DNA of 39,895 nt, from positions 1 through 39,895 of the forward strand of contig JANXWH010000055.1 in NCBI GenBank assembly GCA_025351245.1, in the 5' to 3' direction. Source of the DNA: Chloroflexota bacterium (GTDB lineage: Bacteria; Chloroflexota; Limnocylindria; Limnocylindrales; CSP1-4). Under the pieces are notes generated by a model that was given only the letters and a program-made list of their open reading frames with translations, searched no databases and had not been told where the DNA came from. How positions within the stretch are numbered: the first letter of the stretch is position 1; each line of letters opens with the position of its first letter. Of the stretch, positions 22,160-39,065 are shown one piece after another. Both the position numbers and the translations under genes were made by a program.

Positions 22160-22496
22160 CCGGTCGCCGTTGGCATCCAGGCGCGGACGCGGTTGGCGAA
22201 GGCCGGGAGCTCGACGGCGGGCAGGCTTGGTGCAGTCGGCAGGAACGAGGTGACACCGTGGCGCTGGAGCGCGCGAGCCATGCCCGCCAGCGCGTCCCCA
22301 CCGCCGGTCGCGTCGTGGCCGCCCCAGCCGTGCACGTGGATGTCCACGAACCCCGGTGCCGCGTATGGGCTGTTAGCGGCGCGCGTCCGGCTCCACGGCA
22401 GTGATCCAGCCGTCCTCCACGGTCACGCGCCCCGGCACGACGGTCTCGGCAAGCACCAGCCGACCGCGGACCACCTCACCCGGCATGCTCGACCTC
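22160..22496 (-). pseudogene. nagA: Decayed N-terminal fragment of N-acetylglucosamine-6-phosphate deacetylase
   Basis: MPGEVVRGRLVLAETVVPGRVTVEDGWITAVEPDARR* then, in a shifted frame, NSPYAAPGFVDIHVHGWGGHDATGG...GVTSFLPTA..FANRVRAWMPTATGAE; remainder absent. Confidence 0.75.
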
Positions 22497-23627
22497 GCGA
22501 ACCGCCAACCGCATCGCAAGCACGTTCTCCGGCGGCACGTTGGGCTGGATGTTGTGGACCGCCGCGAACACGAACCCGCCGCCCGGCGCGAGGTCGCCGA
22601 CCCGGCGCCGGACCTCGGTGCGCACCTCGTCCGGCGTGCCGCTGCCCAGGACGCGCTGCGTGTCGACGCCGCCGCCCCAGAAGACCAGGTCCCGGCCGAA
22701 CTCGCGCTTGAGCGCCGCGGTTTCCATGCCCGCCGCGGAGACCTGGACGGGGTTCAGGACATCCACGCCGATCTCGATGAGGTCGGGGATCAGCTCGCGC
22801 ACCGCGCCGCAGGTGTGGAAGAACACCTTCGCGTCGGTGTGGGCGTGGAGGAAGGCGAACAGCTCCCGGTGGAGCGGCTTGACCAGCGTCCGGTAGGTTG
22901 CCGGTGAGAACAGCGTCCGGTCCTGGCCGCCCAGGTCGTCCGCTTCCCCCACCACGTCCACGACGCCGGCAAGCTGGGGCAGGATGCTCGCCCAGTAGGC
23001 GAGCTTCACCTCGAGGATCCGCTCCATCAGCCGGCGCGCCCGGGCAGGCTCCGCCGCCAGGTCCATGTACCCGTCCTCGAAGCCGCGCAGCTTGAACAGG
23101 CCCTCGGTCAGGCCGCCGCATATCGAGCCGACGTGGACCGCCCGCTGCTCCTCGAGCGCGTACCGACGAGCTTCCTCGGCCATGCCCGCGGAGCGAGCCG
23201 GGTCCGCGGCATCCGGCCAGGGATAGGCGTCGATCGCTGCATCCTCGACGTCGCCGGCGAGGGGGGGTGCATACGCGTCGTAGTACAGGCCGCCGTCGAG
23301 CGGAATCCGTCGACCGACGCCCCACTCGTCCACGAACGTTCGGTATTCGCCGTCCTCGCTCAGCTCCCGGCGGTACCTGGAGGCGGCGCGCGGCGCCACC
23401 CCGCGGACGTCGCAACCCAGCGCGTCCAGGACGTCCGCCTCCACGTCGGCCAGCTGCTGGGTGATGTCGCCGACGCGCGGCTCCCCGACCGGGAGGCCCA
23501 GCAGCGCGCGGAGCCGCGCATAGGCACGGACGTGGATCCCGGTGACGCGGGACCCACCGAGGTCGAATGGAATGCGGTCGGGCTCGCGGTGCGCAAGCGC
23601 GGCCCGCACGCGCTCGCGCGAGGTCAT
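22476..23627 (-). CDS. Uroporphyrinogen decarboxylase-family protein (methyltransferase-like)
   Basis: MTSRERVRAALAHREPDRIPFDLGG, FFHTCGAVRELIPDLIEIGVDVLNPVQVSAAGM. Confidence 0.8.
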   Translation of the reverse strand: MTSRERVRAALAHREPDRIPFDLGGSRVTGIHVRAYARLRALLGLPVGEPRVGDITQQLADVEADVLDALGCDVRGVAPRAASRYRRELSEDGEYRTFVDEWGVGRRIPLDGGLYYDAYAPPLAGDVEDAAIDAYPWPDAADPARSAGMAEEARRYALEEQRAVHVGSICGGLTEGLFKLRGFEDGYMDLAAEPARARRLMERILEVKLAYWASILPQLAGVVDVVGEADDLGGQDRTLFSPATYRTLVKPLHRELFAFLHAHTDAKVFFHTCGAVRELIPDLIEIGVDVLNPVQVSAAGMETAALKREFGRDLVFWGGGVDTQRVLGSGTPDEVRTEVRRRVGDLAPGGGFVFAAVHNIQPNVPPENVLAMRLAVREVEHAG

Positions 23628-23844
23628 GCCCCCACGCGATCGGGCGACGAGGTCGGCGGCCGGGGCTGCAACGTCACGCATGGCCGGTCGGCGTCTGCCT
23701 GCCCAGGATCCGGGTCGTCGAGCTCGACGTCAAAGACGACGTCCAGGGCATAGGTATCAGCCGGGTACCGGGACGCTGCGCGATCCCGGTTGCCTCGAGG
23801 GGCAGGCCGGTCATGTCTGGAGGGTCATGTCAGGGCCACAGTAC

Positions 23845-24222: not shown

Positions 24223-24284
24223 ACCATCGCGTTGGTGTGGACGGCCCCGCGGTGGGTTCACGACGCAGCGATCGGAGGGCGCGG

Positions 24285-25142
24285 ATGGAAGTCACGGTTC
24301 GTGAGGCGGAGCCGGACGATTGGCAGGAGTGCGGGCGCATCTGCTACGAGGCGTTCGGGACGCTCGCGGCGCGCCACGGATTCCCGCCGGACTTCCCGAC
24401 GGTCGCGGCGGCGGCCGAGCCGATCAGGTATCTCATCAACCATCCACATGTCTACGGGGTGGTCGCGGAGGGCGGCGGCCGCATCCTGGGCAGCAACTTC
24501 CTCGACGAGCGGTCGACCATCTCCGGGCTGGGGCCGATCAGCGTCGATCCCACCGCGCAGGACCACAAGGTTGGTCGCGCGCTCATGACCGCCGTGCTCG
24601 ATCGGGCGGTTGAGCGTCGCGCCCCGGGCGTCCGGCTGCTCCAGATTGCCTACCACAACCGGTCGCTCAGCCTCTACGCGAAGCTCGGCTTCGACGTTCG
24701 CGGCTCGTTCGCCGCGATGTACGGGGAACCTCTTGGGATCTCGATGCCGGGCTACGCCGTTCGCGCGGCCACGAGTGCCGACGAGGCCGCGTGCAACGCC
24801 CTGTGCGTCCGCGTGCACGGCCACGATCGGGCGGGCGAGCTGCGCGAGGCGATCGCCGACGGCAACGCGAAGGTGGTGGAGCGTCTGGGGCGCATCACCG
24901 GCTACACGACCGGTATCACGTACTTCAGCCACTCGGTCGCGGAGACCACCGACGACCTCCAGGCGCTCATCGGCGCGGCAGCGGACTTCGGGAGGCCGGG
25001 CTTCCTCGTTCCCCTGGCCAACACCCAGCTCTTCCGCTGGAGTCTGGCCCATGACCTGCGCGTCTTCTTCGTCGTGAACATGATGACGATCGGCATCTAC
25101 CAGGAACCCGCCGGCGCCTACATGCCCTCCGTGGGCTACTGA
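24285..25142 (+). CDS. GNAT-family acetyltransferase with C-terminal extension
   Basis: LGPISVDPTAQDHKVGRALMTAVLDRA...IAYHNRSLSLYAKLGF. Confidence 0.8.
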   Translation: MEVTVREAEPDDWQECGRICYEAFGTLAARHGFPPDFPTVAAAAEPIRYLINHPHVYGVVAEGGGRILGSNFLDERSTISGLGPISVDPTAQDHKVGRALMTAVLDRAVERRAPGVRLLQIAYHNRSLSLYAKLGFDVRGSFAAMYGEPLGISMPGYAVRAATSADEAACNALCVRVHGHDRAGELREAIADGNAKVVERLGRITGYTTGITYFSHSVAETTDDLQALIGAAADFGRPGFLVPLANTQLFRWSLAHDLRVFFVVNMMTIGIYQEPAGAYMPSVGY

Positions 25143-25292: not shown

Positions 25293-26282
25293 CTAGGACT
25301 CCGCTGTCACGCGCGTGTAAGCGGCCGCGACGACGACGATGATCGCGCCGAAGAGGACCTGGCGCGTCGGCTCGGGCAGCCCGAGCACGGTGAGCAAGGC
25401 CGTGAGCACCGTCAGGATGAGCGCGCCGACGATCGTGCCGCCGAAGCCGCCGCGGCCGCCAAGGATCGAGGTCCCACCGATCACCGCCGCCGCGACGGCC
25501 GGCAGGAGCGAGGTATCCACGAGCGACACGCTGGCGGTGTTGGTGAGACCCGTGATGAGCAGGCCGGCTATCGCCGCCATCAGCGCGGAGATCACGTACA
25601 GGGCGATCAGGACCTGCCATGCGCGGGCGCCCGACAGCCGCGCGGCAACCGGGTTGTCGCCGATCGCGTACAGCAATCGGCCGAATCCGGTCCGCCGCAG
25701 GCCCAGGAGGATCAGGAGCATCAACGGAACGAACACCACCAGGCTGTACGGCAGGACGTCGAGGAACGTGCCCGTCCCGAGCGTCCTGAGCGACGAGGGA
25801 ACACCCGCGCCCGTCTGCACCATCTGCAGCTGCCAGACGTTCGCCAGGCCCAGCACGACGAAGCTCATCCCGAGGGTCATGATCAGCGGGTGCACCCGGA
25901 ACACGCCGACCCCGATCCCGTTGAGCAACCCGGCCAGTGCCGCCGCCACGAGCGCCACGGCGATGCCCTCGATCACGCCGCCGGGACTGTTCACGAGCGT
26001 TGCGGTGACGAACCCGGCCATGGATGCGACCGCGGCGACCGAGAGGTCGATGCCGCCGGTCAGCATGGTCAGCGTCTGGCAGCCGGCAAGGATTGCCAGG
26101 GGCACGGAGGCGCGCAGGATGACGCTCGCCCACTCGGGATTGACGATGCCCGGATCCGCCAGCTCGATGACCACGACCAGGAGGACGAGCAGTCCGACCA
26201 GCGGGATGATGGGCCGGTCGCGGAGCAGACCGCGCCAGGCGTCCACCCTGAGCCAGCGGTTGGCAGGCGGGGTCGCGCTCAT
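25293..26282 (-). CDS. Ribose-type sugar ABC transporter permease
   Basis: LTMLTGGIDLSVAAVASMAG, GDNPVAARLSGA, VIGGTSILGGRGGFGGTIVGALI. Confidence 0.88.
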   Translation of the reverse strand: MSATPPANRWLRVDAWRGLLRDRPIIPLVGLLVLLVVVIELADPGIVNPEWASVILRASVPLAILAGCQTLTMLTGGIDLSVAAVASMAGFVTATLVNSPGGVIEGIAVALVAAALAGLLNGIGVGVFRVHPLIMTLGMSFVVLGLANVWQLQMVQTGAGVPSSLRTLGTGTFLDVLPYSLVVFVPLMLLILLGLRRTGFGRLLYAIGDNPVAARLSGARAWQVLIALYVISALMAAIAGLLITGLTNTASVSLVDTSLLPAVAAAVIGGTSILGGRGGFGGTIVGALILTVLTALLTVLGLPEPTRQVLFGAIIVVVAAAYTRVTAES

Positions 26283-27274
26283 GCGCGGGCCCGCCGAAGC
26301 TGGATGAGGCTCCCGAACATCACCACGCCGATGAGGATGACGCCCTGGGCGACGAGCGCCAGGTTCGAGTCCATGTTGAGGAACGTCATGTCGGTCGCGA
26401 TCAGTTGGAGGACGACGACGGCGACGATCGGGCCGAAGACACCGCCCCGGCCGCCGGCGAGGCTGACGCCGCCGAGGACGACCGCCGCCACGCTCTCCAG
26501 CGTGTACGGCCCGGGGACGGGCGTCCCGATCCCGGTGCTCGCCGTGAGGGAGAGGCCCGCGAACGCAGCGAACAGGCCGGTGAGGGCATAGGCGAGGAAC
26601 CTCGTCCTCCCGACGGCGACGCCGCTCCGGAACGCCGCCGGGCGGTTGCTGCCGATCGCGTAGATCGACAGGCCCAGCCGCGATCCCCGGATCGGGATCC
26701 AGATGATGGCCACCGTGACGACGAGGACGACTGCCGCCTTCGGGACCCATTCGTTGGCAAACGACCCGGTTGCGAGTCCCATGAGCCAATGCGAGGCGCC
26801 GCCACCCGGCGCGGCCCGGACGAGCAGCGCGACACCGGCCCACACGAAGGACATCGCGAGCGTGACCACGATGTCCGGGACGCGGGTGATGACGATGAGG
26901 GCGCCGTTCACGGCGCCGAGCGCGAGACCCAGGAGGAGCACGGCCACCACGACGGCGACCCCGAACTCCTCGCCCTGGCCTTGCATCGCCGTTGCCGTGA
27001 CGACACTGGTGAGCGCCATCATCGATCCGATCGACAGGTCGATCCCGCCGCCGATGACGGCGACCCCCTGCGCGACGGCGGCGAAGGCAAGCGGCAGCAC
27101 GCCGATGCCGAGCCCCTGGACTGCCGCCACCCCGTAGCTCGGCTGGATGAGCTTCGTGAACGCCAGGAGGAGGGCAAGGAACCCGAGCAGCCCGATCGTC
27201 CAGGTGTTGCGGCGGGCCGTGGCGACAACCGAGTCGAGGGTGCGCTGGCGCGATGCGATCGCCGCGGCGGTCAC
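26279..27274 (-). CDS. Ribose-type sugar ABC transporter permease (second)
   Basis: VAVIGGGIDLSIGSMMALTS, LGGVSLAGGRGGVFGPIV; GTG start overlaps ATPase stop. Confidence 0.88.
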   Translation of the reverse strand: MTAAAIASRQRTLDSVVATARRNTWTIGLLGFLALLLAFTKLIQPSYGVAAVQGLGIGVLPLAFAAVAQGVAVIGGGIDLSIGSMMALTSVVTATAMQGQGEEFGVAVVVAVLLLGLALGAVNGALIVITRVPDIVVTLAMSFVWAGVALLVRAAPGGGASHWLMGLATGSFANEWVPKAAVVLVVTVAIIWIPIRGSRLGLSIYAIGSNRPAAFRSGVAVGRTRFLAYALTGLFAAFAGLSLTASTGIGTPVPGPYTLESVAAVVLGGVSLAGGRGGVFGPIVAVVVLQLIATDMTFLNMDSNLALVAQGVILIGVVMFGSLIQLRRARA

Positions 27275-28854
27275 CCCCGGGCCTCCGGGCCCCCGGCCAC
27301 CTCGGATGGCGGCCGGTCGACGCTCGCCGCATCGACGACGGCGGCGGCGACCTGCTCGGGCATCGGAGCGTCCGACCGCAGGTGGTAGGCAGCGCGCAGG
27401 AGCGTCGCCTCGTCCGCGTCCACGGCGCCGACCTCGGCCACCACCCGCCCGCCGAAGATCACGATCGCGCGGTCGCACACGAGCTGCACCTCCTTCAGCT
27501 CCGAGGTGTAGAGGAGCACCGCCGCCCCGGCTTCGGCGAGGTCGCGGAGCAGGAGGTAGATCTGCTGCTTGGTCCTGATGTCGATCCCGCGGGTCGGGTC
27601 GAAGCACAGCATGGTACGGACCCCGCCGGCGACCCACCGCGCGATCGTCACCTTCTGCTGGTTGCCGCCGGAGAGCCGGCGGACCTCGCTTCCGGCGCGG
27701 GCGTCGATCTGCAGCTTGGTGACCGCCTGGTCGACCTTCTGCCGCTCCGCGCCCAGGTCGATCAGCCCCCACCGGCCGATGCGCGCCGTGAACGGCAGGG
27801 CGATGTTCTCCCGCACCGACCGCTGCATGAGGAGGGCCTCCGCACGGTCGGCGGCGACGTACACCAGCCCGGCGCGGATGGCGTCCGCAGGGTGACGGAA
27901 CGAGGCGGCGGAACCGTCCACGAGGAGCTCGCCGCTGCCCGGGCGCTCTGAGCCGGCGAGGATGTCGAACAGCTCGTCCTGGCCCTGGCCCTCCAGCGCC
28001 ACGACCCCGAGCACTTCGCCGGGGTAGAGGTCGAACGAGACGTCCCGGAGCTTCGTCCCCGAGCTGATCCCGCGCACTGCCAGGCGCGGCGTCGCGCCCG
28101 TCCCACGGTGCCCCGCTGTCGCCTCCGCGACCGCCGGCATCTCGTGGATGATCTGGCCGAGCATCAGCTCGACGATCCGCTCGTCCGAGCCCGCCGTCAC
28201 GTCGACGACGCCGACGGTCTCGCCCTCCCGCAGCACCGTCGCCCGGTCGCACACGGACGCGATCTCGCTGAGGCGGTGGGAGATGAAGACGACCGAGCGC
28301 TCTCCGCCGCGTCGGCTCCCGACCACCTCGAGCACGCGCTCCGTCAGGTTGGCGGGCAGGGCCGCGGTCATCTCGTCGAGCATGAGCACGTCGGGCTCGA
28401 TCGCGAGCGCCCGCGCGAGGTCGATGATCCGGAGCGAGGCCAGCGGAAGGCGCCGCGCCATGCTCGACAGATCAAGGTCCCCGAGGCCGAGCTCGGCGAG
28501 CCAGTGCCGGAATGGCTCCAACGGCGTGTCGGTCAGGCGCAGGTTGGCCCGGATGTCCAGGTCCGGGATGATGGACGGCTCCTGGTACACGGAGACCAGC
28601 CCACCGCGGCGCGCCTCGGCCGGGGAGTGGACGGTGCGTTCCCGCCCTCGGACCGCGATCCGTCCGCCGTCCGGCCGGACTGCCCCGGTGAGGATCTTGA
28701 CGAGGGTGCTCTTGCCGGCGCCATTGGCGCCCATGAGCGCATGGACCTCCCCGGGGCGCACGGCCAGGGACGCCGACCTCAGGGCAACGACGGCGCCGTA
28801 GGTCTTGGAGACGCCTGTCGCCTCGAGCATCAAGTCAGTGGCGGTGATGGTCAT
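27271..28854 (-). CDS. Sugar ABC transporter ATP-binding protein with two NBDs (RbsA/MglA type)
   Basis: Walker A GANGAGKSTL in NBD1; LSGGNQQKVTIARW signature in NBD2. Confidence 0.9.
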   Translation of the reverse strand: MTITATDLMLEATGVSKTYGAVVALRSASLAVRPGEVHALMGANGAGKSTLVKILTGAVRPDGGRIAVRGRERTVHSPAEARRGGLVSVYQEPSIIPDLDIRANLRLTDTPLEPFRHWLAELGLGDLDLSSMARRLPLASLRIIDLARALAIEPDVLMLDEMTAALPANLTERVLEVVGSRRGGERSVVFISHRLSEIASVCDRATVLREGETVGVVDVTAGSDERIVELMLGQIIHEMPAVAEATAGHRGTGATPRLAVRGISSGTKLRDVSFDLYPGEVLGVVALEGQGQDELFDILAGSERPGSGELLVDGSAASFRHPADAIRAGLVYVAADRAEALLMQRSVRENIALPFTARIGRWGLIDLGAERQKVDQAVTKLQIDARAGSEVRRLSGGNQQKVTIARWVAGGVRTMLCFDPTRGIDIRTKQQIYLLLRDLAEAGAAVLLYTSELKEVQLVCDRAIVIFGGRVVAEVGAVDADEATLLRAAYHLRSDAPMPEQVAAAVVDAASVDRPPSEVAGGPEARG

Positions 28855-28878
28855 CGATTTCCTGGAACTGGAGGGATG

Positions 28879-28919
28879 TCGCGCGAGGGACGCCGGCGGA
28901 ACCGGCGTCCCTCGCGCGA
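28879..28919. promoter_or_regulatory. 18-bp perfect-stem hairpin between substrate-binding protein and ATPase genes
   Basis: tcgcgcgagggacgccgg-cggaa-ccggcgtccctcgcgcga. Confidence 0.75.
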
Positions 28920-28938
28920 GCTGCGTCTGCTGGTCGAG

Positions 28939-30123
28939 TTACGCGCCCTTGCAGGACGCGGGGACGGTGTTGGGATCGTACGTGGTCCAGCCCTCGATGG
29001 AGAGGCTGAGCGGCCACAGCAGGTCCATCCCGGGGACGGACACCCACGAATTCAGCCCCGCCTTGCCGGTATCGGTCAGGTTGTCGAGCAACACCGGGTC
29101 CAGCAGGACGGTGTTGGCCTTGGCGCCGGCAGAGGCGGTGACCGTCTCGCCGTTGAGGAGCTTGAGCGCCAGGGTGATGCCCGCACCGCCGACGGAGGCC
29201 GTGTTGGTCACGGCCGCGCCCTTGAGGCCCGGGAAGTTGGTGGGATCGAGGAGCTGGGCGACGAACCCGCCGATGTCGGCATCGACGATGGGCACGAACT
29301 TCTTGTTGGCAGCTTTGATGGCATCGACGATCTGCTTGCCCATGCCCGACGCCCAGATGCCCTGGATCTTGTCGTACTGGCCGCTCTGGATGAAGTCGTT
29401 GGTCAGCTGGGTGGTCTTTGCCGGATCCCACCCCGTGAACACGCCGTCCGCGGTCGGGACGACCTTGATGCCCGGGTAGTCCTTGAGGACGTTCTTGAAC
29501 CCGATGTCACGGTCGGAGTCGGCCGGGTGGCCGGCGAGGCCGCGCGTGTACCAGACGGTGCCCTTGCCTCCGAGCTGGTCGAACAGCCACTTGGCGCCGA
29601 GCTCCGCGTACTTCACCTGGTTGTTGGTCAGGTTCCACGTGCTAGGGTCGGTCACGTTGGCATCGACCGAGACGGTCACGATCCCGGCGGCTTTCGCCTC
29701 GGCAAGGGCCGGGTTGAGGGCAGCCGGATCGTTCGGGTTGAAGACGATCGCTTTGACGCCCTTCGCGATCAGGTTCCGGATGTCGGACAGCTGGCCAGCA
29801 GCGTCCGTGTTGCGGTGGATCACGGTGAGGTTGGAGACCGAACCCGACGCCTTGGCCTGTGCCTTGGCCGTGCAGACCTGCTCCTCGCGGAAGCCGTTGC
29901 CCACGCCGCCGCCGTTCGAGTACCCGATCGTGTACTGCTTCGGGGCTGCCGACGGCGAGGCTGCCGCTGCGGACGGCGCGGCGGACGGCGCGACGGACGC
30001 CGCTGCAGACGGCGCTGCGGCCGATGCCGCGGGCGAGGGTGTTGCGGCACCGGAGCACGCTCCGACGACGACCGCGATCGCGGCCAGCATCGCGAGGCTG
30101 CGCACGATTCCGTTTCGTTTCAT
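28939..30123 (-). CDS. Sugar ABC transporter substrate-binding lipoprotein
   Basis: Lipobox-like VVVGAC, Ala/Ser/Pro linker, periplasmic-binding type-1 features; RBS ggaggag. Confidence 0.87.
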   Translation of the reverse strand: MKRNGIVRSLAMLAAIAVVVGACSGAATPSPAASAAAPSAAASVAPSAAPSAAAASPSAAPKQYTIGYSNGGGVGNGFREEQVCTAKAQAKASGSVSNLTVIHRNTDAAGQLSDIRNLIAKGVKAIVFNPNDPAALNPALAEAKAAGIVTVSVDANVTDPSTWNLTNNQVKYAELGAKWLFDQLGGKGTVWYTRGLAGHPADSDRDIGFKNVLKDYPGIKVVPTADGVFTGWDPAKTTQLTNDFIQSGQYDKIQGIWASGMGKQIVDAIKAANKKFVPIVDADIGGFVAQLLDPTNFPGLKGAAVTNTASVGGAGITLALKLLNGETVTASAGAKANTVLLDPVLLDNLTDTGKAGLNSWVSVPGMDLLWPLSLSIEGWTTYDPNTVPASCKGA

Positions 30124-30381: not shown

Positions 30382-31122
30382 TCAGTAGCCGCCCGGCTCG
30401 CCGGTCGACGCACCGGCGGGCGCGGTCCCGGCCTTGCGCGCGCGGAAGTCCAGGATGATCGCCTCGGTCGCGGTGGCGCCGATCCGGGTGACGCCGAGCT
30501 CCATGACGGCCAGGAGCGCGTCGAGCGTTCGAACCCCGCCGGCGGCCTTGACCCGGACGTGGGGCGAGGTGTTGGCGCGCATCAGGCGGAGGTCGTCGTG
30601 CGTTGCGCCGGACGGCGCGAAGCCGGTGCTCGTCTTCACGAAGTCGGCGCCGGCGGCTTCGGTGAGGCGGCACGCTCGGACCTTCTCGTCGTCGGTCAGG
30701 TAGGCGTTCTCGAAGATCACCTTGACGATCGCGCCGGCGGCATGCCCAACCGTCACGACGGCCTCGATGTCCGCCTGGACGTCGGCGTCGCGGCCGGACT
30801 TGAGCGCGCCGATCTGGAGGACCATGTCCAGCTCGGTGGCACCGTCGGCCAGCGCTTGCTGGGCCTCGAAGACCTTCGTCTCCGTGCGGTGGTTGCCGTG
30901 CGGGAACCCGATGGTGGTGCCGACCGCGACATCCGTACCGGCGAGGAGCGCCGCCGCCCGCCTGACGTCCACCGGCCGCACGCAGACCGATGCCACGTCG
31001 TACTTCGCGGCCAGCCGACAGCCGGCCTCGACGAACGCGTCGTCCAGCTCCGGCCGCAGCAGCGAGTGATCGATGGTCTTCGCGATGTCGCGCTCGGTGA
31101 GCTTGTCGATGAAGAGTGCCAT
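30382..31122 (-). CDS. deoC: Deoxyribose-phosphate aldolase-like
   Basis: IDHSLLRPE, IGFPHGNHRTETKVFE, ADFVKTSTGF (Schiff-base Lys). Confidence 0.87.
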   Translation of the reverse strand: MALFIDKLTERDIAKTIDHSLLRPELDDAFVEAGCRLAAKYDVASVCVRPVDVRRAAALLAGTDVAVGTTIGFPHGNHRTETKVFEAQQALADGATELDMVLQIGALKSGRDADVQADIEAVVTVGHAAGAIVKVIFENAYLTDDEKVRACRLTEAAGADFVKTSTGFAPSGATHDDLRLMRANTSPHVRVKAAGGVRTLDALLAVMELGVTRIGATATEAIILDFRARKAGTAPAGASTGEPGGY

Positions 31123-31142: not shown

Positions 31143-32057
31143 CTACTTGCAGTACGGCCGCAGCACGTCCCTCGCGATGAGGAACCCCTGTTTGACCTTG
31201 TCGTCGGTGCCCTCGAAGCGGCGATCCTCGTGCTCGATGATGCAGTCGCCCTCGAAGCCCTGCCGGTAGAGCTCCGAGAAGACGATGCTCCAGTCAACCT
31301 CGCCGAGGCCCGGGATGCGCGGGATCTGCCAGCCGATGCCCATCGAGAAGACGCCCCGCTCGTAGAGCCCGTCGCGGTCGATCATCAGGTCCTTGGCCTG
31401 GAAGTGAAGGACGTGGGCGCCGAACTCCTTGAGGAACCGGCGCGCATCGATCATCTGGAGGACGAGGTGCGACGGGTCGAAGTTGAGCCCGATCGTGCCG
31501 CCCCACTGCTCCAGGATCCGGCGCCACATGCGCGGGGTCGTGGCGATGTTGTGCCCGCCCGGCCATTCGTCGTACGAGAACAGCATCGGGCAGTTCTCGA
31601 GCGTGACCTTCCGACCGTGGTCGTTGGCGAATGCCACGACGTCCGGCCAGACGCGGAGCGCCTCCTCCCAGTTCTGGTCCTGGTTCTTCGCGCCGTCACC
31701 GCCCATGAACGTGTTCACCAGGGGCACGCCCATCTTCTCCGCGGCGGTGATCACGTGCTTCAGGTGGCCGATCACCTGCTCGCGATGGGCCGGGTCGGGG
31801 TGGAGCGGGTTCGGGTAGAAGCCCAGGCCGGAGATCGAGAGGCCCTTGCCCGCGAGCTCGTCCACGATCTCGGTGGCCTGCGACGACGACAGGTTCGCAA
31901 CGTCGATGTGGCTCGTCCCGGCATACCGGCGGGTGGGGCCGGTGGTCCGCGGCCAGCAGGCGATCTCGAGGACCTCGAAGCCGGTCCCGGCAGCCCAGTC
32001 GGCCACCTCCATGAGCGGCGTGGCGGGGAATGGTGCGGTCAGGAAGCCGAGCTTCAT
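31143..32057 (-). CDS. Sugar phosphate isomerase/epimerase (xylose-isomerase-like TIM barrel)
   Basis: VTLENCP, GLNFDPSHLVLQ, HFQAKD, GDCIIEHEDRRFEG. Confidence 0.85.
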   Translation of the reverse strand: MKLGFLTAPFPATPLMEVADWAAGTGFEVLEIACWPRTTGPTRRYAGTSHIDVANLSSSQATEIVDELAGKGLSISGLGFYPNPLHPDPAHREQVIGHLKHVITAAEKMGVPLVNTFMGGDGAKNQDQNWEEALRVWPDVVAFANDHGRKVTLENCPMLFSYDEWPGGHNIATTPRMWRRILEQWGGTIGLNFDPSHLVLQMIDARRFLKEFGAHVLHFQAKDLMIDRDGLYERGVFSMGIGWQIPRIPGLGEVDWSIVFSELYRQGFEGDCIIEHEDRRFEGTDDKVKQGFLIARDVLRPYCK

Positions 32058-32112
32058 CGCGGCTGACCCTCCAGGCTCAACGGCGTGACGAGGTGACACG
32101 AGGGGATGATTG

Positions 32113-32178: not shown

Positions 32179-33339
32179 TCATGCGGGTCGGGCCACCTCG
32201 ACCCAGCGGCCGGCGCGCGAGCTCTCCAGGACGGCGTCGCCGATGAGCATCTCCTCATGGCCGTCGGCGAAGGTCGCGTAGGCGGGCGCCCGGGACGGGA
32301 CCCCGGCGACGACGTCGGCGTAGATCGCGGCGAAGACGGCGCCGAACGTGTCCGCAAATCCTTCCACGTGCCCGCCCGGCAGCCGGGCGGCGGCGCGCCC
32401 GCTGGCGTTCATGAGGGCCGGGTTTCGGAGAAGGAGCTCGTTGGGCCGGTCGCGATGGCCGATCCAGAGCTGCTCGGGCTGCTCGGAGTCCCACGCCACG
32501 GCGGACGAGGAGCCGTCGATCTGGTAGGCAAGGCTGTTCTTCCGGCCTGGACTGAGCTGGGAGATCGCCACGCTGCCGCGCGCTCCGCCCTCGAGACGCA
32601 GGAGGATCGTCGCCACGTCCTCCGTGTGGATCTCGACCGGGATGGTCTCCGAGGCGCGCTCCGTGGAGAAGGTGAGGACGGGACCGGCGGGCTTCCGGCG
32701 GACCGGGATGAACGTGGTGAGGTCGGCCATGACCGCCTCGACCCGGCGTCCGGTCAGGAACGTGGTCAGGTCGAGCCAGTGCGAGCCGATGTCCCCCACT
32801 GCCCGCAGGGCTCCGCCCTGGTCCTTTTCCAGGCGCCAGTTCCAGTCCGTGTCGTAGAGCAGCCAGTCCTGGAAGTACCGCCCGGTGACCAGCCGGACGT
32901 CGCCGAGCCCGCCCTCGCGGACCAGGCCGGCCACGTGCTGGTTGAGCGGATAGAAGCGGATGTTGAAGTTGACCGCGTTGACCAGGCCGCTGGCCGCGGC
33001 CAGCTCCACCAGTTCCGCCGACTCCCCGGACGTCATCGCCAACGGCTTCTCGCAGATGACGTGCCGACCCGCGGCGAGGATCTCCTTGACCTGCGGATGG
33101 TGGAGCTCATTCGGCGACGTGACGTGCACGACCTGGACGGCGTCGTCCGCGAGGGTCTCCGCCAGGCTCGCATAGGCCCGCGGCAGCCCCAGCTCCGCGG
33201 CGCGCACGGCGCCCAGCTCCGGCGTCGCCTCCAGAAGCCCGACGACCCGGACGCCGATCCGGCGCAGCGCCTCGATGTGGACCGTGCCGATGAAGCCGCT
33301 GCCAACGACGGCGGCCCCGATGTCACTGAAGTGCCTCAT
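32179..33339 (-). CDS. Gfo/Idh/MocA-family oxidoreductase
   Basis: AVVGSGFIGTVHIEALRRIG Rossmann motif; HVICEKPLAMT; GDIGSHWLDL. Confidence 0.88.
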   Translation of the reverse strand: MRHFSDIGAAVVGSGFIGTVHIEALRRIGVRVVGLLEATPELGAVRAAELGLPRAYASLAETLADDAVQVVHVTSPNELHHPQVKEILAAGRHVICEKPLAMTSGESAELVELAAASGLVNAVNFNIRFYPLNQHVAGLVREGGLGDVRLVTGRYFQDWLLYDTDWNWRLEKDQGGALRAVGDIGSHWLDLTTFLTGRRVEAVMADLTTFIPVRRKPAGPVLTFSTERASETIPVEIHTEDVATILLRLEGGARGSVAISQLSPGRKNSLAYQIDGSSSAVAWDSEQPEQLWIGHRDRPNELLLRNPALMNASGRAAARLPGGHVEGFADTFGAVFAAIYADVVAGVPSRAPAYATFADGHEEMLIGDAVLESSRAGRWVEVARPA

Positions 33340-33373: not shown

Positions 33374-33447
33374 TCGCCAGTCTCGCGGTCGGCGCTCGCC
33401 AGCGGCAATGACACTAACGGCAGATTAACTGTCAGGAGCGGCTGGCG
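33374..33447 (-). repeat. 74-bp regulatory element, copy 1 (oriented toward the Gfo/Idh gene)
   Basis: 68/74 identical to the inverse-oriented copy at 34651-34724. Confidence 0.85.
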
Positions 33448-33597
33448 CCGGGCGTCGGTGACGTCCCCCGCCGGGATGAGTTGGACATGTTTGGCCATTT
33501 CCGTCCATTCGGCCCTCCTGCCAACCGGGCCACGAGTCCGATCATCCACGCCAGGCCTGCAGCATCTCCCGGACGTCGGCGGAGGCGAAGCCGGGCC

Positions 33598-34548
33598 ATG
33601 GAGGGTTTCGTGACGGTCTTCTTCTGGCAGCACGACCTCGATCCGGCGTTCCCACTGTCCGTGCTCGAATACGAGACACGTGACGCGGACGACCAGCTGC
33701 ACTGGCACGAGTACCTCGAGATCGCGCTATGCCTCCAGGGGAGCGGGCGGTTCCTGTTCGGGCGCCGCAGCTATCCTGCCGAGCCCGGAGACATCTTTCT
33801 GATCGACGACGCCGAGCCGCACGTGTGCGTCACCGATCCCCCCAACCGGATGCGCCTCCTCCTCGCGCTCTTCCGCCCGGAGCTCATCGCGGCGCCGGGC
33901 TGTCGCAGCTTCGACGCCGAGTACCTGGCCCCTTTCAGATGCGGTGGGCGTCCGTTCGCCAACCGCCTTCCAGGAGGAGGGCCGGCCGCCTCCGAGCTCC
34001 GGCCGATCCTCCTCGAGCTCAAGACGATCTGGGACCGGGAGGATCCCGCCGATCGGCACCTCCTCGACGCCATCCTGAGACGCGCGCTCGCCGTCCTTGT
34101 GCGGCATGCGCGTGCCAGCGAGTCGGCTCGGGATGACTCGGCCGCGCCCAGCGATCGACACGAGCAGGTTCGGCCGGTGCTGAGCTACGTCGAGCAGCAC
34201 TTCAGGGAGAGCCTGACGCTGGAGCGGGTGTCGGAGCACGTGCACGTGAGCGCGTCGCGCGTGCGCCACCTGTTCAAGGACGTGACGAGCGTGGGCTTCA
34301 AGGAGTACGTCACGAGCCTGCGCCTCTCGGAGGCGAAGCGCCTGCTTCTGACCAGCGATACCTGCGTGCAGGAGGTGGCCTACACCGTCGGGTACACCAA
34401 CCTGAACCAGTTCTACAAGGTGTTCCAGCGCTACTCGTCGATGTCGCCCGCCGACTACCGGCGGTACTACCGGCGTTCGGGCGGGGCAGAGGTCGTGCTG
34501 CGGGAAGACCGCGGGCTTGCGCGCGGGGGTCCCGCGCGCGTCGCGTGA
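33598..34548 (+). CDS. AraC-family transcriptional regulator with N-terminal cupin
   Basis: Cupin LHWHEYLEIALCLQGSGRFLF; HTH ESLTLERVSEHVHVSASRVRHLFKDVTSVGFKEYVTSLRLSEAKRLLLTSDTCVQEVAYTVGYTNLNQFYKVFQRY. Confidence 0.9.
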   Translation: MEGFVTVFFWQHDLDPAFPLSVLEYETRDADDQLHWHEYLEIALCLQGSGRFLFGRRSYPAEPGDIFLIDDAEPHVCVTDPPNRMRLLLALFRPELIAAPGCRSFDAEYLAPFRCGGRPFANRLPGGGPAASELRPILLELKTIWDREDPADRHLLDAILRRALAVLVRHARASESARDDSAAPSDRHEQVRPVLSYVEQHFRESLTLERVSEHVHVSASRVRHLFKDVTSVGFKEYVTSLRLSEAKRLLLTSDTCVQEVAYTVGYTNLNQFYKVFQRYSSMSPADYRRYYRRSGGAEVVLREDRGLARGGPARVA

Positions 34549-34575
34549 CTCACGGGCACGCGTTGCCCGTGAGTC
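34547..34575. terminator. 12-bp perfect-stem hairpin overlapping the araC-family stop codon
   Basis: gactcacgggca-cgcgt-tgcccgtgagtc. Confidence 0.6.
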
Positions 34576-34650
34576 GCGGACGCCGTCGCAGTGCCGTTGC
34601 TGACAACTCGGACGCGACCGTCCGGAGCCCGGAACGCCACCGCCGCGCCG

Positions 34651-34724
34651 CGCCAGCCGCTCCTGACAGTTTATCGGCCGCTAGTGACATTGCCGCTGGC
34701 GACCGTCGACCGCGAGACTGGCGA
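34651..34724 (+). repeat. 74-bp regulatory element, copy 2 (oriented toward the OYE-family gene)
   Basis: cgccagccgctcctgacagtttatcggccgctagtgacattgccgctggcgaccgtcgaccgcgagactggcga. Confidence 0.85.
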
Positions 34725-34796
34725 TCAAGACCGCGCATCGGTCGGGACGTCCCGTTTCCGCTGCGGATGCGACCCGCGCCAGTCAGGGAGAGGTCC

Positions 34797-36971
34797 ATGC
34801 CGTCGTTCCCGCACCTGTTCAGTCCGATCCAGCTCGGTGGCCTGGAGCTGCCGAACCGCGTGGTCCATGTTCCGACGGACATCAGCTCCTCCCACGCCGA
34901 CGGCGAGGTGAGCGAGCGCGACATCCACCACCACGCCGACATCGCGCGCGGTGGGGCCGGGTTCATCATCGTCGGCGCCACGACGCCGGACATGAGAACC
35001 GGGCGACCGACGGTGACGTGCCTCGTGGCCGACGGTGACAACTACATTCCGGGCCTGGCGCGCCTCGCCGAGAGCATGCATCGCTACGGCGCGAAGTGCG
35101 CGGTGCAGCTCCAGCACCCAGGCCGCCAGTGCGCGATCCCGCGCTACAACACCCTGGGCGCGACCGACCGGGTCCTCAAGCTCCCATGGTCGGCCGGGCA
35201 CGAGATCATCTACGAGAACGCCGAGGAGAAGGGCAAGGAGATCCGGGCCGCCTCGATTGCCGAGATCCTCGAGCTGGTCGACCTCTTCAGCGAGGCCGCG
35301 TGGCGCGTGAAGCAGGCCGGCTTCGACGCCGTTGAGCTCCACGCAGCCCACGGCTACCTGCTCTCGGAGTTCATGAGCCCGTTTCTCAACCAGCGCAACG
35401 ACCGGTTCGGCGGGAGCCTCGAGAACCGGATGCGCTTCCCGCTGGCGGTCGTCGATTCGATCCAGAAGAAGTGCGGCAAAGGCTTCCCGGTCCTCGTCCG
35501 ATACTCCTTCGACGAGTGGTGCGAGGGCGGACGCGGGCTCGAGGAGGGCATCGAGATCGCGAGGATGCTCGAGCGGGCCGGTTGCGCCGCGGTCGACCTC
35601 TCGATGGGCATGCAGGAGAGTCCCGGAGCCGGCTTCGACCCGATGCAGTATCCCCAGGGCTGGGCAACGTACGCCGCCGAGGCGACGAAGAAGGCGGTCC
35701 GGATCCCGGTCATCACCAGCCACTCACTGCGCGATCCGGAGTACTGCGATCGGATCATCGCGGAGGGCAAGACGGACCTCGTGGGCCTGGCCCGCCAGTT
35801 GCTCGCGGACCCGTACTGGCCGGTCAAGGCACAGTACGGCAGGGTCAAGTCGATCCGGAAGTGCATCTCCTGCCTGGGCGGATGCTGGCAGGAGTCGCTG
35901 ATGGCGAAACACGAGATCGCCTGCTCGATCAACGCGGCGTGCGGGAATCCCGCGTACGCGGACATGCAGCGAACGACGAAGGCAGTCCGCGTCGCGGTCG
36001 TCGGCGGCGGACCGGCCGGGATGGAAGCCGCGCGAATCGCCACGGAGCGCGGGCACACCGTCACCCTGTTCGAGAAGGCCGGCGAGCTGGGCGGCGCATT
36101 GCTCTACTGCTGCCTGGTGCCGGGCAAGGAGAAGATGCGCTGGTACCTGGATTGGATCCGGAACCAGCTCCTTGACCTGCACATCGAAATCCGGCTCAAC
36201 CACGCCCCGACCGTGGACGAGCTCCGCGGGTTTGACGTCGTCCTGAACGCGACCGGCGCGATCTCGTACGTCCCGGAAGTCCTTGGCCAGCGTGATCGGG
36301 TCGTGCCCTTCGAGGAGGCGATGGCCTGCCCGAAGATCGCGTGCGAGTGCCATCCCGGCGCACGGAAGCTCCACAAGCTGGGGTCGCACGTGCTCCTGTG
36401 GGGCGACCATTACGCCGCGGCCGACACGGCAGCATTCCTGGGCAGCATCGGCAAGCAGGTCACGATCGTGACCGAGAAGCACGAGTTCGCGGCCGAGTGC
36501 GAGGTCATCCACATGTATGTCCTGCGCAAGCGCTTCGCGCAGGGCGACGCCGAGGCGCTCAGCTCTCGACCGTTCAGGCACCCCGTGACCGTCATCACGA
36601 ACGCCACCGTGCGCGAAGTGCGCGAGGGCGAGGTCGTCATCGAGGACCACGACTTCGGCCGCACCACGCTCCAGGTGAGCGACGTGGTTTCGTGCCATAC
36701 GCGACCCGTCGTCGACCTGCTCGGCGAGCTGCAGGCCGCCGGCGTCCACGTCATCAACGTCGGCGACTCCGTGCGTCCCCGCAACCTCTACTACGCCGTG
36801 AAGGAAGGGTCGGCGTTCGGCCTCGCGGTCGACGAGCACATGCTGTTCAACCCGAACCACGCAATCCTCAACGAGCTCCCGATCGACGTTCTCGCGCAGC
36901 TGACGCGTGAGGAGGCCCCTGCCTACTCGCACCAGCAGATCGTGGCGCTCACGGCGCGGCGCGATGGCTGA
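34797..36971 (+). CDS. OYE-family NADH:flavin oxidoreductase with 4Fe-4S and NAD(P)/FAD domain (2,4-dienoyl-CoA reductase-like)
   Basis: FDAVELHAAHGYLLSEFMSPFLNQRNDRFGGSLENR; CISCLGGCWQESLMAKHEIAC; VAVVGGGPAGMEAARIA; true ATG 34797 rather than the ORF-track start 34545. Confidence 0.88.
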   Translation: MPSFPHLFSPIQLGGLELPNRVVHVPTDISSSHADGEVSERDIHHHADIARGGAGFIIVGATTPDMRTGRPTVTCLVADGDNYIPGLARLAESMHRYGAKCAVQLQHPGRQCAIPRYNTLGATDRVLKLPWSAGHEIIYENAEEKGKEIRAASIAEILELVDLFSEAAWRVKQAGFDAVELHAAHGYLLSEFMSPFLNQRNDRFGGSLENRMRFPLAVVDSIQKKCGKGFPVLVRYSFDEWCEGGRGLEEGIEIARMLERAGCAAVDLSMGMQESPGAGFDPMQYPQGWATYAAEATKKAVRIPVITSHSLRDPEYCDRIIAEGKTDLVGLARQLLADPYWPVKAQYGRVKSIRKCISCLGGCWQESLMAKHEIACSINAACGNPAYADMQRTTKAVRVAVVGGGPAGMEAARIATERGHTVTLFEKAGELGGALLYCCLVPGKEKMRWYLDWIRNQLLDLHIEIRLNHAPTVDELRGFDVVLNATGAISYVPEVLGQRDRVVPFEEAMACPKIACECHPGARKLHKLGSHVLLWGDHYAAADTAAFLGSIGKQVTIVTEKHEFAAECEVIHMYVLRKRFAQGDAEALSSRPFRHPVTVITNATVREVREGEVVIEDHDFGRTTLQVSDVVSCHTRPVVDLLGELQAAGVHVINVGDSVRPRNLYYAVKEGSAFGLAVDEHMLFNPNHAILNELPIDVLAQLTREEAPAYSHQQIVALTARRDG

Positions 36972-38046
36972 CGGGGGCGGTCCCGGCTTGCACGCGGGCA
37001 GCCGAGCGGTGAGCGACATGAGGCCAGCCCGAGCCCGCACAGATACGCCGTTGCGCGTCGGCGTCGTGGGGGCCGGGTTCATCGGCGAGACACACGTCGC
37101 CGCATGGGCCGCCGAGGGCGTCCAAGCCGTGATCCACGACGTGGATGCCGGCCGCGCGGCCGCGCTTGCCGACCGGCACGGGGCACGCGTCGCGGAATCC
37201 CTCGACGAGCTGTTCGGCGCGGTCGACGTCGTCGACGTCTGCTCGCCCACACACCACCATGCCGGAGTCGCCATCGCCGCTGCACGCCCCGGCCGCCACG
37301 TGAACTGCGAGAAGCCGATGGCGCGCACCCTGGCGGACGCAGAGGCGATGCTCGCGGCCGCGCGCGACGCCGGTGTCCGGCTCTTCGTGGCTCACGTGGT
37401 GCGGTTCTTCCCGGAGTACGTCGCGGCGCGGGCGGCCGTGCTGGCCGGCGCGATCGGCGAACCCGCCGTGCTCCGCCTCACCAGGGCGAGCTTCCGTCCG
37501 CGGCAACCCGCCGGACACTGGTTCTTCGACCATGCCAAGTCGGGCGGGATCGTCCTCGACCTGATGATCCACGACCTCGACTACGCGCGCTGGATTGCCG
37601 GCGACGTCGTGGCGGTTCATTGCAGATCGGCGAGCCTGGCGCAACCGGACGCGGGCGTCGACCACGCGGTGGCAATCCTCACCCACCGATCGGGCGCGAT
37701 CAGCCACGTCTCGGCATCGTGGGGCTACGCGCCGCCCATCTTCCGGACCGCCCTGGAGATCGCGGGCTCACACGGTCTCATCGAGCAGGACTCGACGACG
37801 ACCGCGCCGGTCACGCCGTCACTGCTCGCAGGCGCCGCGGGCGGTGGCCTGACGGGGATTGCCGACACGGGCCTCGCCGGGGACCCCTTCCGCCTGGAGC
37901 TCGCTGAGTTTGCCAAGGCGATCCGCGACGGGTCCGAGGCGAGGATCGGGGCCGCGGACGGCCTCGAGGCACTCCGCATCGCTCTCGCCGCCGACGCGTC
38001 GGCACGGACCGGGGCCGTCGTCCGGCTCACGCAGGCGGCCGGGTGA
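36964..38046 (+). CDS. Gfo/Idh/MocA-family oxidoreductase
   Basis: VGVVGAGFIGETHVAAWA; HVNCEKPMART; start overlaps OYE stop (alternative ATG 37018). Confidence 0.87.
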   Translation: MADGGGPGLHAGSRAVSDMRPARARTDTPLRVGVVGAGFIGETHVAAWAAEGVQAVIHDVDAGRAAALADRHGARVAESLDELFGAVDVVDVCSPTHHHAGVAIAAARPGRHVNCEKPMARTLADAEAMLAAARDAGVRLFVAHVVRFFPEYVAARAAVLAGAIGEPAVLRLTRASFRPRQPAGHWFFDHAKSGGIVLDLMIHDLDYARWIAGDVVAVHCRSASLAQPDAGVDHAVAILTHRSGAISHVSASWGYAPPIFRTALEIAGSHGLIEQDSTTTAPVTPSLLAGAAGGGLTGIADTGLAGDPFRLELAEFAKAIRDGSEARIGAADGLEALRIALAADASARTGAVVRLTQAAG

Positions 38047-39065
38047 TGGTCGTCGACCCGGAAGGCCGTGCGCCCGTGCGGATCGGCGTCCTCTCCGCCG
38101 AGCATGTCCACGCGCCTACGTACATCTCGCTCCTAGCGTCGATGCCGGGCGCGCACCTGGTAGGGGTGTGGGACGACGATCGGCAGCGCGCCGCGGCCGC
38201 GGCGGAACCCGTCGCGACGCGCGCGTTCGACGCCATCGAGGCGCTGCTCGAGCGCGTCGACGGCGTCGTGATCGCCTCGGCCAACAGCCGCCACCTGCGG
38301 CTCGTCGAGATCGCAGCGGGGGCGGGGGTGCACATCCTGTGCGAAAAGCCGCTCGCGACCACGGTCGAGGACGCCCGGGCGATCGTGGACGCCTGCGCCC
38401 GTGCGGGCGTTCGCCTGATGACCGCGTTCCCCACCCGCTGGAACCCCGCCGCGCGGGCGCTGGAATCCGCGGTGCGGTCCGGGGCACTCGGCACGCCGGT
38501 CTTCCTCGAGGGCGTCAACACCGGGACGATGCCGGACATCCACGCGGCCTGGTTCGTCGACCCCGTCCTCGCCGGGGGCGGCGCGGTGACGGACCACGTC
38601 GTGCACCTGGCGGACCTCTTTCGCTGGATCCTGCGCTCCGAGGTCGTCGAGGTGTACGCCGTCGCGAACCGGATCCTCCAGGAGCGATTCGCGGGGGTCG
38701 AGACCGGCGGGCTCGTCTCGATGCGCTTCGCCAGCGGCGTGTCCGCCACCATCGACTGCAGCTGGAGCAAGCCGCGCTCCTACCCAACGTGGGGCGGCCT
38801 CTCGGTCCAGGCGGTTGGCACGGGCGGGGCGTTCGGCATCGACGCCTTCCGACAGCGCCTCGCCGTGTATGGAACACGCGAAACCGGGATCTCGTGGCCG
38901 ACGTGGGGCCCCGACGCCGACCGCGAGATGCTGGCAGAGTTCGTATCCATGGTGCGGGACGATCGGGAGCCGGCGGTGACGGGGGTCGATGGGCTGCGGG
39001 CGGTCGAGATCGTCGACGCGGCGTACCGCTCGATCGCGGCCAGTGCACCGGTCTCGCTCGGGTGA
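38043..39065 (+). CDS. Gfo/Idh/MocA-family oxidoreductase
   Basis: VRIGVLSAEHVHAPTY; HILCEKPLATT; start overlaps upstream stop. Confidence 0.85.
   Translation: MMVVDPEGRAPVRIGVLSAEHVHAPTYISLLASMPGAHLVGVWDDDRQRAAAAAEPVATRAFDAIEALLERVDGVVIASANSRHLRLVEIAAGAGVHILCEKPLATTVEDARAIVDACARAGVRLMTAFPTRWNPAARALESAVRSGALGTPVFLEGVNTGTMPDIHAAWFVDPVLAGGGAVTDHVVHLADLFRWILRSEVVEVYAVANRILQERFAGVETGGLVSMRFASGVSATIDCSWSKPRSYPTWGGLSVQAVGTGGAFGIDAFRQRLAVYGTRETGISWPTWGPDADREMLAEFVSMVRDDREPAVTGVDGLRAVEIVDAAYRSIAASAPVSLG

Follow-up and report, generated by a model that had tools for sequence, protein, structure and literature searches.

An AraC-family regulator gene lies between two divergent catabolic gene arms in the 39,895-nucleotide stretch of DNA from an uncultured Chloroflexota bacterium analysed here as a whole (hereafter the window), and nearly the same sequence stands on either side of it in inverted orientation. 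What is this sequence, and why does it occur in front of both arms? The features collected in Table 1, read together with the genomes of relatives, lead us to propose that each copy is, in all likelihood, a module of operator and promoter through which the AraC-family protein from the intervening gene acts.

Table 1. Positions of the repeated element, its parts and the surrounding genes in the window
Feature	Position	Strand	Evidence or remark
Copy 1, conserved 45-bp core GCGCCAGCCGCTCCTGACAGTTAATCTGCCGTTAGTGTCATTGCC	33404..33448	-	PWM 57.5 bits; 41/45 identical to copy 2
Copy 1, distal half-site (I1-like) CCGCTCCTGACAGTTAA	33425..33441	-	21 bp from proximal half-site
Copy 1, proximal half-site (I2-like) CCGTTAGTGTCATTGCC	33404..33420	-	overlaps predicted -35
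Copy 1, predicted -35 TTGCCG	33403..33408	-	sequence; register with -10 fixed in 28/28 elements
Copy 1, predicted -10 GAGACT	33379..33384	-	spacer 18; nAnnnT at offset in 28/28
Copy 2, conserved 45-bp core GCGCCAGCCGCTCCTGACAGTTTATCGGCCGCTAGTGACATTGCC	34650..34694	+	PWM 62.4 bits
Copy 2, distal half-site (I1-like) CCGCTCCTGACAGTTTA	34657..34673	+	half-site scan
Copy 2, proximal half-site (I2-like) CCGCTAGTGACATTGCC	34678..34694	+	half-site scan
Copy 2, predicted -35 TTGCCG	34690..34695	+	sequence; fixed register
Copy 2, predicted -10 GAGACT	34714..34719	+	spacer 18
AraC-family regulator, predicted binder	33598..34548	+	cupin AraC_binding PF02311 2.2e-13; HTH_18 PF12833 1.1e-20
Conserved block upstream of araC (CCATTCGGCCCTCCTGCC...CGATCATCC)	33503..33551	+	aligns with G050/G059
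Gfo1, Gfo/Idh/MocA oxidoreductase	32179..33339	-	first left-arm gene, predicted copy 1 target
Xylose-isomerase-like TIM barrel protein, left arm	31143..32066	-	PF01261
DeoC-type aldolase, left arm	30382..31122	-	TIGR00126, 223.8 bits, above cut-off
Sugar ABC importer, left arm: substrate-binding protein, ATPase, two permeases	25293..30120	-	domain and family models
OYE/2,4-dienoyl-CoA-reductase-like flavoenzyme, predicted copy 2 target	34797..36971	+	PF00724 1.5e-62; structures 6qkg, 1ps9
Gfo2 and Gfo3, two further Gfo/Idh genes, right arm	36907-38046; 38043-39065	+	domain search

The inverted pair and the genes around it

The first-pass annotation had reported a match of 68/74 positions between 33374-33447 (minus strand) and 34651-34724 (plus strand), and pairwise alignment returned the same figure, while the next best 74-mer in the window agreed with copy 2 at only 39/74 positions. 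In a repeat search, the similarity of the pair reached 94 nt at 88% (33374-33467 and 34631-34724). The annotation was also right that the open reading frame track buries copy 2 inside an over-extended frame, which had been drawn from a GTG (34545..36971); the real start of the OYE-like gene (OYE) is the ATG at 34797, where GGGAGAGG precedes it as ribosome site and the alignment of orthologs begins at residue 1-4. Each copy was correctly placed in front of a catabolic arm, copy 1 lying upstream of the Gfo/Idh gene and ending 34 nt 5′ of its ATG at 33339.

The protein encoded between the copies combines an N-terminal cupin ligand-binding domain of the sugar-type subgroup with a C-terminal AraC-type double HTH, which was also recognised by PF00165 (5.3e-13) and by comparison with structure 2k9s, the DNA-binding domain of AraC (7.8e-10). 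Its gene most likely starts at ATG 33598 rather than at TTG 33481. Among 11 orthologs, conservation was 0.75-0.78 in the HTH domains, 0.69 in the cupin domain and 0.45 in the linker. The equivalog of E. coli AraC (NF007860) was ruled out for this regulator by a score of 80.2 bits against a cut-off of 208, and those of RhaS and MelR by scores below their cut-offs. The block upstream of araC, which aligned with G050/G059 at a score of 102 compared with 43 for the best of 500 shuffles, is the probable araC promoter or leader. In each of two genomes, the araC match (locus L056, G058:C110; and G109:C46) contains a single in-frame stop (TAG, TGA); decay, an assembly error or a match overrunning the gene end are possible causes.

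Since the island encodes an importer, three Gfo/Idh enzymes, an isomerase-like protein and a DeoC aldolase, its substrate is presumably a sugar or a sugar-like compound, and no closer assignment is justified. The NCBIfam model nearest to Gfo1 was levoglucosan dehydrogenase, at a score far below the cut-off (154 vs 650), and OYE fell below all cut-offs when compared with the BaiCD, bilirubin reductase and mycofactocin OYE models. The window also holds a GNAT acetyltransferase gene (24237-25142, plus strand) and a URO-D/MtaA-like methyltransferase gene (22476-23681, minus strand). Both kinds of gene are found near the araC/OYE locus in G027, G044 and G056, and the GNAT gene is also near it in G058 and G042; on this ground, a role in the same pathway is possible for both.

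Half-sites and promoter register of the element

The element pattern was derived from 13 relatives and two public contigs in addition to the window's genome; the two contigs appear identical to contigs in G117 and G124. In all, 28 elements from the window's genome and its relatives were compared. In the window, both copies carry a pair of direct half-sites (GCCnnTnnTGnCAnT), with an offset of exactly 21 bp. Over the 28 elements, the profile matched itself with a score of 2.05 at offset 21, compared with 0.6-1.4 for all remaining offsets between 8 and 30, and 8 of 5000 column permutations reached the 21-bp score at any offset. The inner half-site ends in CATTGCC, of which TTGCC together with the next base forms a possible -35 hexamer, and all 28 elements carry nAnnnT 17-18 bp after this TTGCCn hexamer, against a background of 1.2%.

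Mean pairwise identity over the same elements was high in the core (0.74) and in the -10 (0.69) and low in the flanks and spacer (0.30-0.38), which indicates that the conserved unit consists of the two half-sites plus the promoter. A scan of the window for single half-sites, allowing 3 mismatches, found 11 where 9 were expected; as this is the chance level, single half-sites have no predictive value. Two half-sites followed by a promoter, the latter predicted from its motifs, is the layout of a class II activator site of the AraC family. The predicted -10 is far from TATAAT; weak on its own, it counts against the promoter reading, although it fits a promoter that depends on an activator.

Targets of the element and its link to the regulator

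The elements in the window's genome and its relatives stand before genes of the same island, with 27/28 fronting OYE, the sugar importer or a Gfo/Idh gene. In nearly all genomes the element precedes OYE, 60-110 bp 5′ of its start, with araC divergent in most of them and in tandem in the window, G002 and G117; in three genomes it precedes the sugar ABC importer. Second elements lie upstream of the importer's substrate-binding protein gene in G012 and G050, on contigs without araC, and in G124 (L043). An element in front of Gfo1 was present only in the window among the genomes examined. Elements upstream of Gfo1 orthologs in other genomes were sought and none was found, the best PWM score being 4.2. 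Hence the first-pass idea of one switch at both arms is supported for this locus and does not extend to a family rule for the Gfo/Idh copy: control of that arm by a copy of its own would be a local innovation of this genome.

The gene order of two relatives bears on the unity of the arms. In G031, a single element precedes OYE, Gfo1, the isomerase, the aldolase and the importer, all on the same strand, and in G005 Gfo1 lies on the strand of OYE-Gfo2-Gfo3, about 9 kb further on and without an element; from this, the two arms appear to form a single metabolic unit. The Gfo1 arm of the window, on the far side of araC, looks to be served by a second copy of the switch.

Two further observations were made on element positions. 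G042 (8% contamination) has two OYE loci, L086 (C238) and L065 (C192), each with its own element and divergent araC, one of the two araC genes being partial; this reflects either a paralogous regulon or a mixed bin. The strong orphan element at L142 (G117:C90, 3920-3964, minus strand; PWM 47.6; -10 GAAACT) has no island gene downstream, which speaks against the proposed role, and about 100 nt after it there is a GC-rich hairpin with a pyrimidine run, the next same-strand ORF (HEAT repeats) being about 550 bp away. This element could drive a short RNA, or it could be a relic.

Two similar sites in inverted orientation on both sides of araC recall the loop that forms between araO2 and araI1 in E. 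coli, and the pair might mainly serve repression, with the copies 1.2 kb apart looping across araC. Autoregulation of araC would be compatible with the position of the element in the shared araC/OYE intergenic region of most genomes. However, the inner half-site overlaps the -35 in the activator register in 28/28 elements, and near araC most relatives carry one element only, which rules out two-copy looping as the conserved function. We consider a mainly repressing or looping role unlikely.

The assignment of the element to the AraC-family regulator, as its operator with the promoter, draws on their joint occurrence. The AraC ortholog was found in 22 of 107 family genomes, and the element in the identical 22 and in none of the other 85 (Fisher 2.6e-23, with kinship among the 107 genomes uncorrected), while a reversed control pattern gave 0 matches across all 107. 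In a first set of 101 genomes that included other families, AraC was found in 14 and the element in the same 14. Six of the 22 genomes (G101, G105, G107, G109, G128 and G129) lay outside pattern building and therefore confirm the association independently; the second elements on other contigs do so too. The close relatives that carry names are uncultured Chloroflexi assemblies. As the element occurs exactly where the regulator occurs, it very likely combines the site to which this regulator binds with a promoter.

Part of this association has a simpler source, since AraC usually adjoins the element and block inheritance therefore contributes to their co-occurrence. Such linkage could mimic a functional tie if the element were in fact bound by a different regulator, or acted as a strong constitutive core promoter, and AraC merely hitchhiked with it. 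This explanation appears quite improbable. OYE (E<=1e-250) was detected in 23 genomes of the family search, and in the two genomes that keep OYE without AraC, G005 (OYE 93% identical) and G057, the element is absent as well. G005 retains the araC-upstream block (CCATTCGGCCCTCCTGCCAACCGG...ATCATCCACG) a short distance from the OYE leader, as if araC and the operator had been excised together. Elements also persist at other importer loci of AraC-bearing genomes, a 21-bp offset between direct half-sites suits AraC-family proteins, and the annotated genes of the island include no second regulator.

A cis-acting RNA, riboswitch or leader, common to both transcripts would account for an element in the 5′ region of two related gene sets. 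It is very improbable, as the sequence 3′ of the -10 is unconserved (identity 0.32 over the 28 elements) and the conserved core, being upstream of the predicted -10, would be untranscribed; an Rfam search matched no family (best E 0.94, far below gathering).

In the source genome (a 94%-complete assembly of 2.92 Mb in 243 contigs), BLAST found the two copies (E 1.6e-34 and 3.5e-25) before the next match at 0.056; copies 1 and 2 were also the only matches to the core pattern when up to 3 mismatches were allowed. A mobile-element remnant or a dispersed inverted repeat flanking araC by chance is suggested by the likeness of inverted copies around a gene to terminal inverted repeats, and a dispersed repeat had been considered in the first-pass annotation. 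This reading is hardly credible and was rejected on the copy number of two, neither copy being unlinked; moreover, no transposase occurs among the annotated island genes, and single homologous copies in several genera keep a fixed distance from OYE, with unconserved flanks.

A proposed switch, its possible origin and known systems

How an operator-plus-promoter module on either side of araC might work can be outlined from its layout. Two AraC DNA-binding domains, presumably of one dimer, would occupy the direct half-sites 21 bp apart, one on each, and the cupin domain would sense a ligand, presumably the sugar or sugar-like substrate of the island or a derivative of it. Once bound, the regulator may recruit RNA polymerase to a weak sigma-70-type promoter (-10 GAGACT), activating rather than repressing it; recruitment as a class II activator is proposed because the inner half-site overlaps the -35 TTGCCG. 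Copy 2 would drive OYE-Gfo2-Gfo3 from a transcript start at about 34726, and copy 1 would drive Gfo1-isomerase-aldolase-ABC importer from about 33372, the extents of both operons being predicted. With the copies driving separate arms, one regulator and one signal would switch both divergent arms. Such co-regulation, which the first-pass annotation had suggested, is an interpretation well supported by the AraC/element co-occurrence and by the half-site and promoter layout. Copying of the switch would then have placed the two arms of a sugar-type catabolic island under a single protein.

As to the origin of copy 1, we tentatively suggest that the araC segment was inverted and its operator-promoter duplicated in inverted orientation at the other end, by which the neighbouring operon was recruited into the regulon. 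Most relatives have araC divergent from OYE with one element between them, and the window and G002 have araC in tandem with OYE; in the window, the inverted elements flank araC, and the Gfo1 arm, which shares the strand of OYE in G005 and G031, lies on the far side. Homology links the stretch from copy 1 to araC with that from element to araC in G050/G059, as an inversion predicts, so copy 1 and araC keep the divergent module and araC is turned relative to OYE. An inversion with end duplication would give the present inverted pair. The G002 contig ends at the araC start, and a DNA search with the copy 1 region found there only the OYE-side element. Among the genomes examined, copy 1 at the Gfo/Idh gene is a lineage-specific addition. 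In the part of the literature searched, the titles on inversion breakpoints concern eukaryotes.

A testable regulon, with predicted regulator, operator consensus, promoter register and targets, is now proposed for a lineage that is represented here by metagenome assemblies alone. Natural experiments are at hand in G005, where regulator and operator were lost together, and in the re-targeting of the same operator to OYE, the sugar importer or Gfo/Idh in different genomes. The locus also offers a miniature case of a regulon gaining a second target by copying a whole operator-promoter module upon a rearrangement of gene order.

The architecture itself is well known, and this regulon appears undescribed, no description of it having been found in the part of the literature searched. 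At E. coli pBAD, the direct half-sites I1 and I2 are 21 bp apart, I2 overlaps the -35 at araBAD, and araC is adjacent. The locus in the window resembles pBAD in the 21-bp direct half-sites, the inner one on the -35, and the adjacent regulator gene, and its regulator likewise combines cupin and AraC HTH domains; it differs in the half-site sequence and in having the element on both sides of the regulator gene. RhaS/RhaR and MelR are also sugar-type AraC activators with an adjacent target operon; the regulator of the window has moderate HMM similarity to them but does not reach their equivalog cut-offs. For RhaR, the sites are arranged as inverted repeats (PMC3870299). Comparative genomics has been used to infer AraC-family L-rhamnose regulators in Bacillales, Bacteroides and Enterococcus, and direct repeats with 21-bp periodicity were described for AraC-family sugar regulators in the same work (PMC3870299). 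The regulon proposed here differs from those of the L-rhamnose regulators in motif, target enzymes and phylum, with no rhamnose pathway genes recognised in the window, and it is like them in being deduced from shared upstream motifs and in its 21-bp direct-repeat periodicity.
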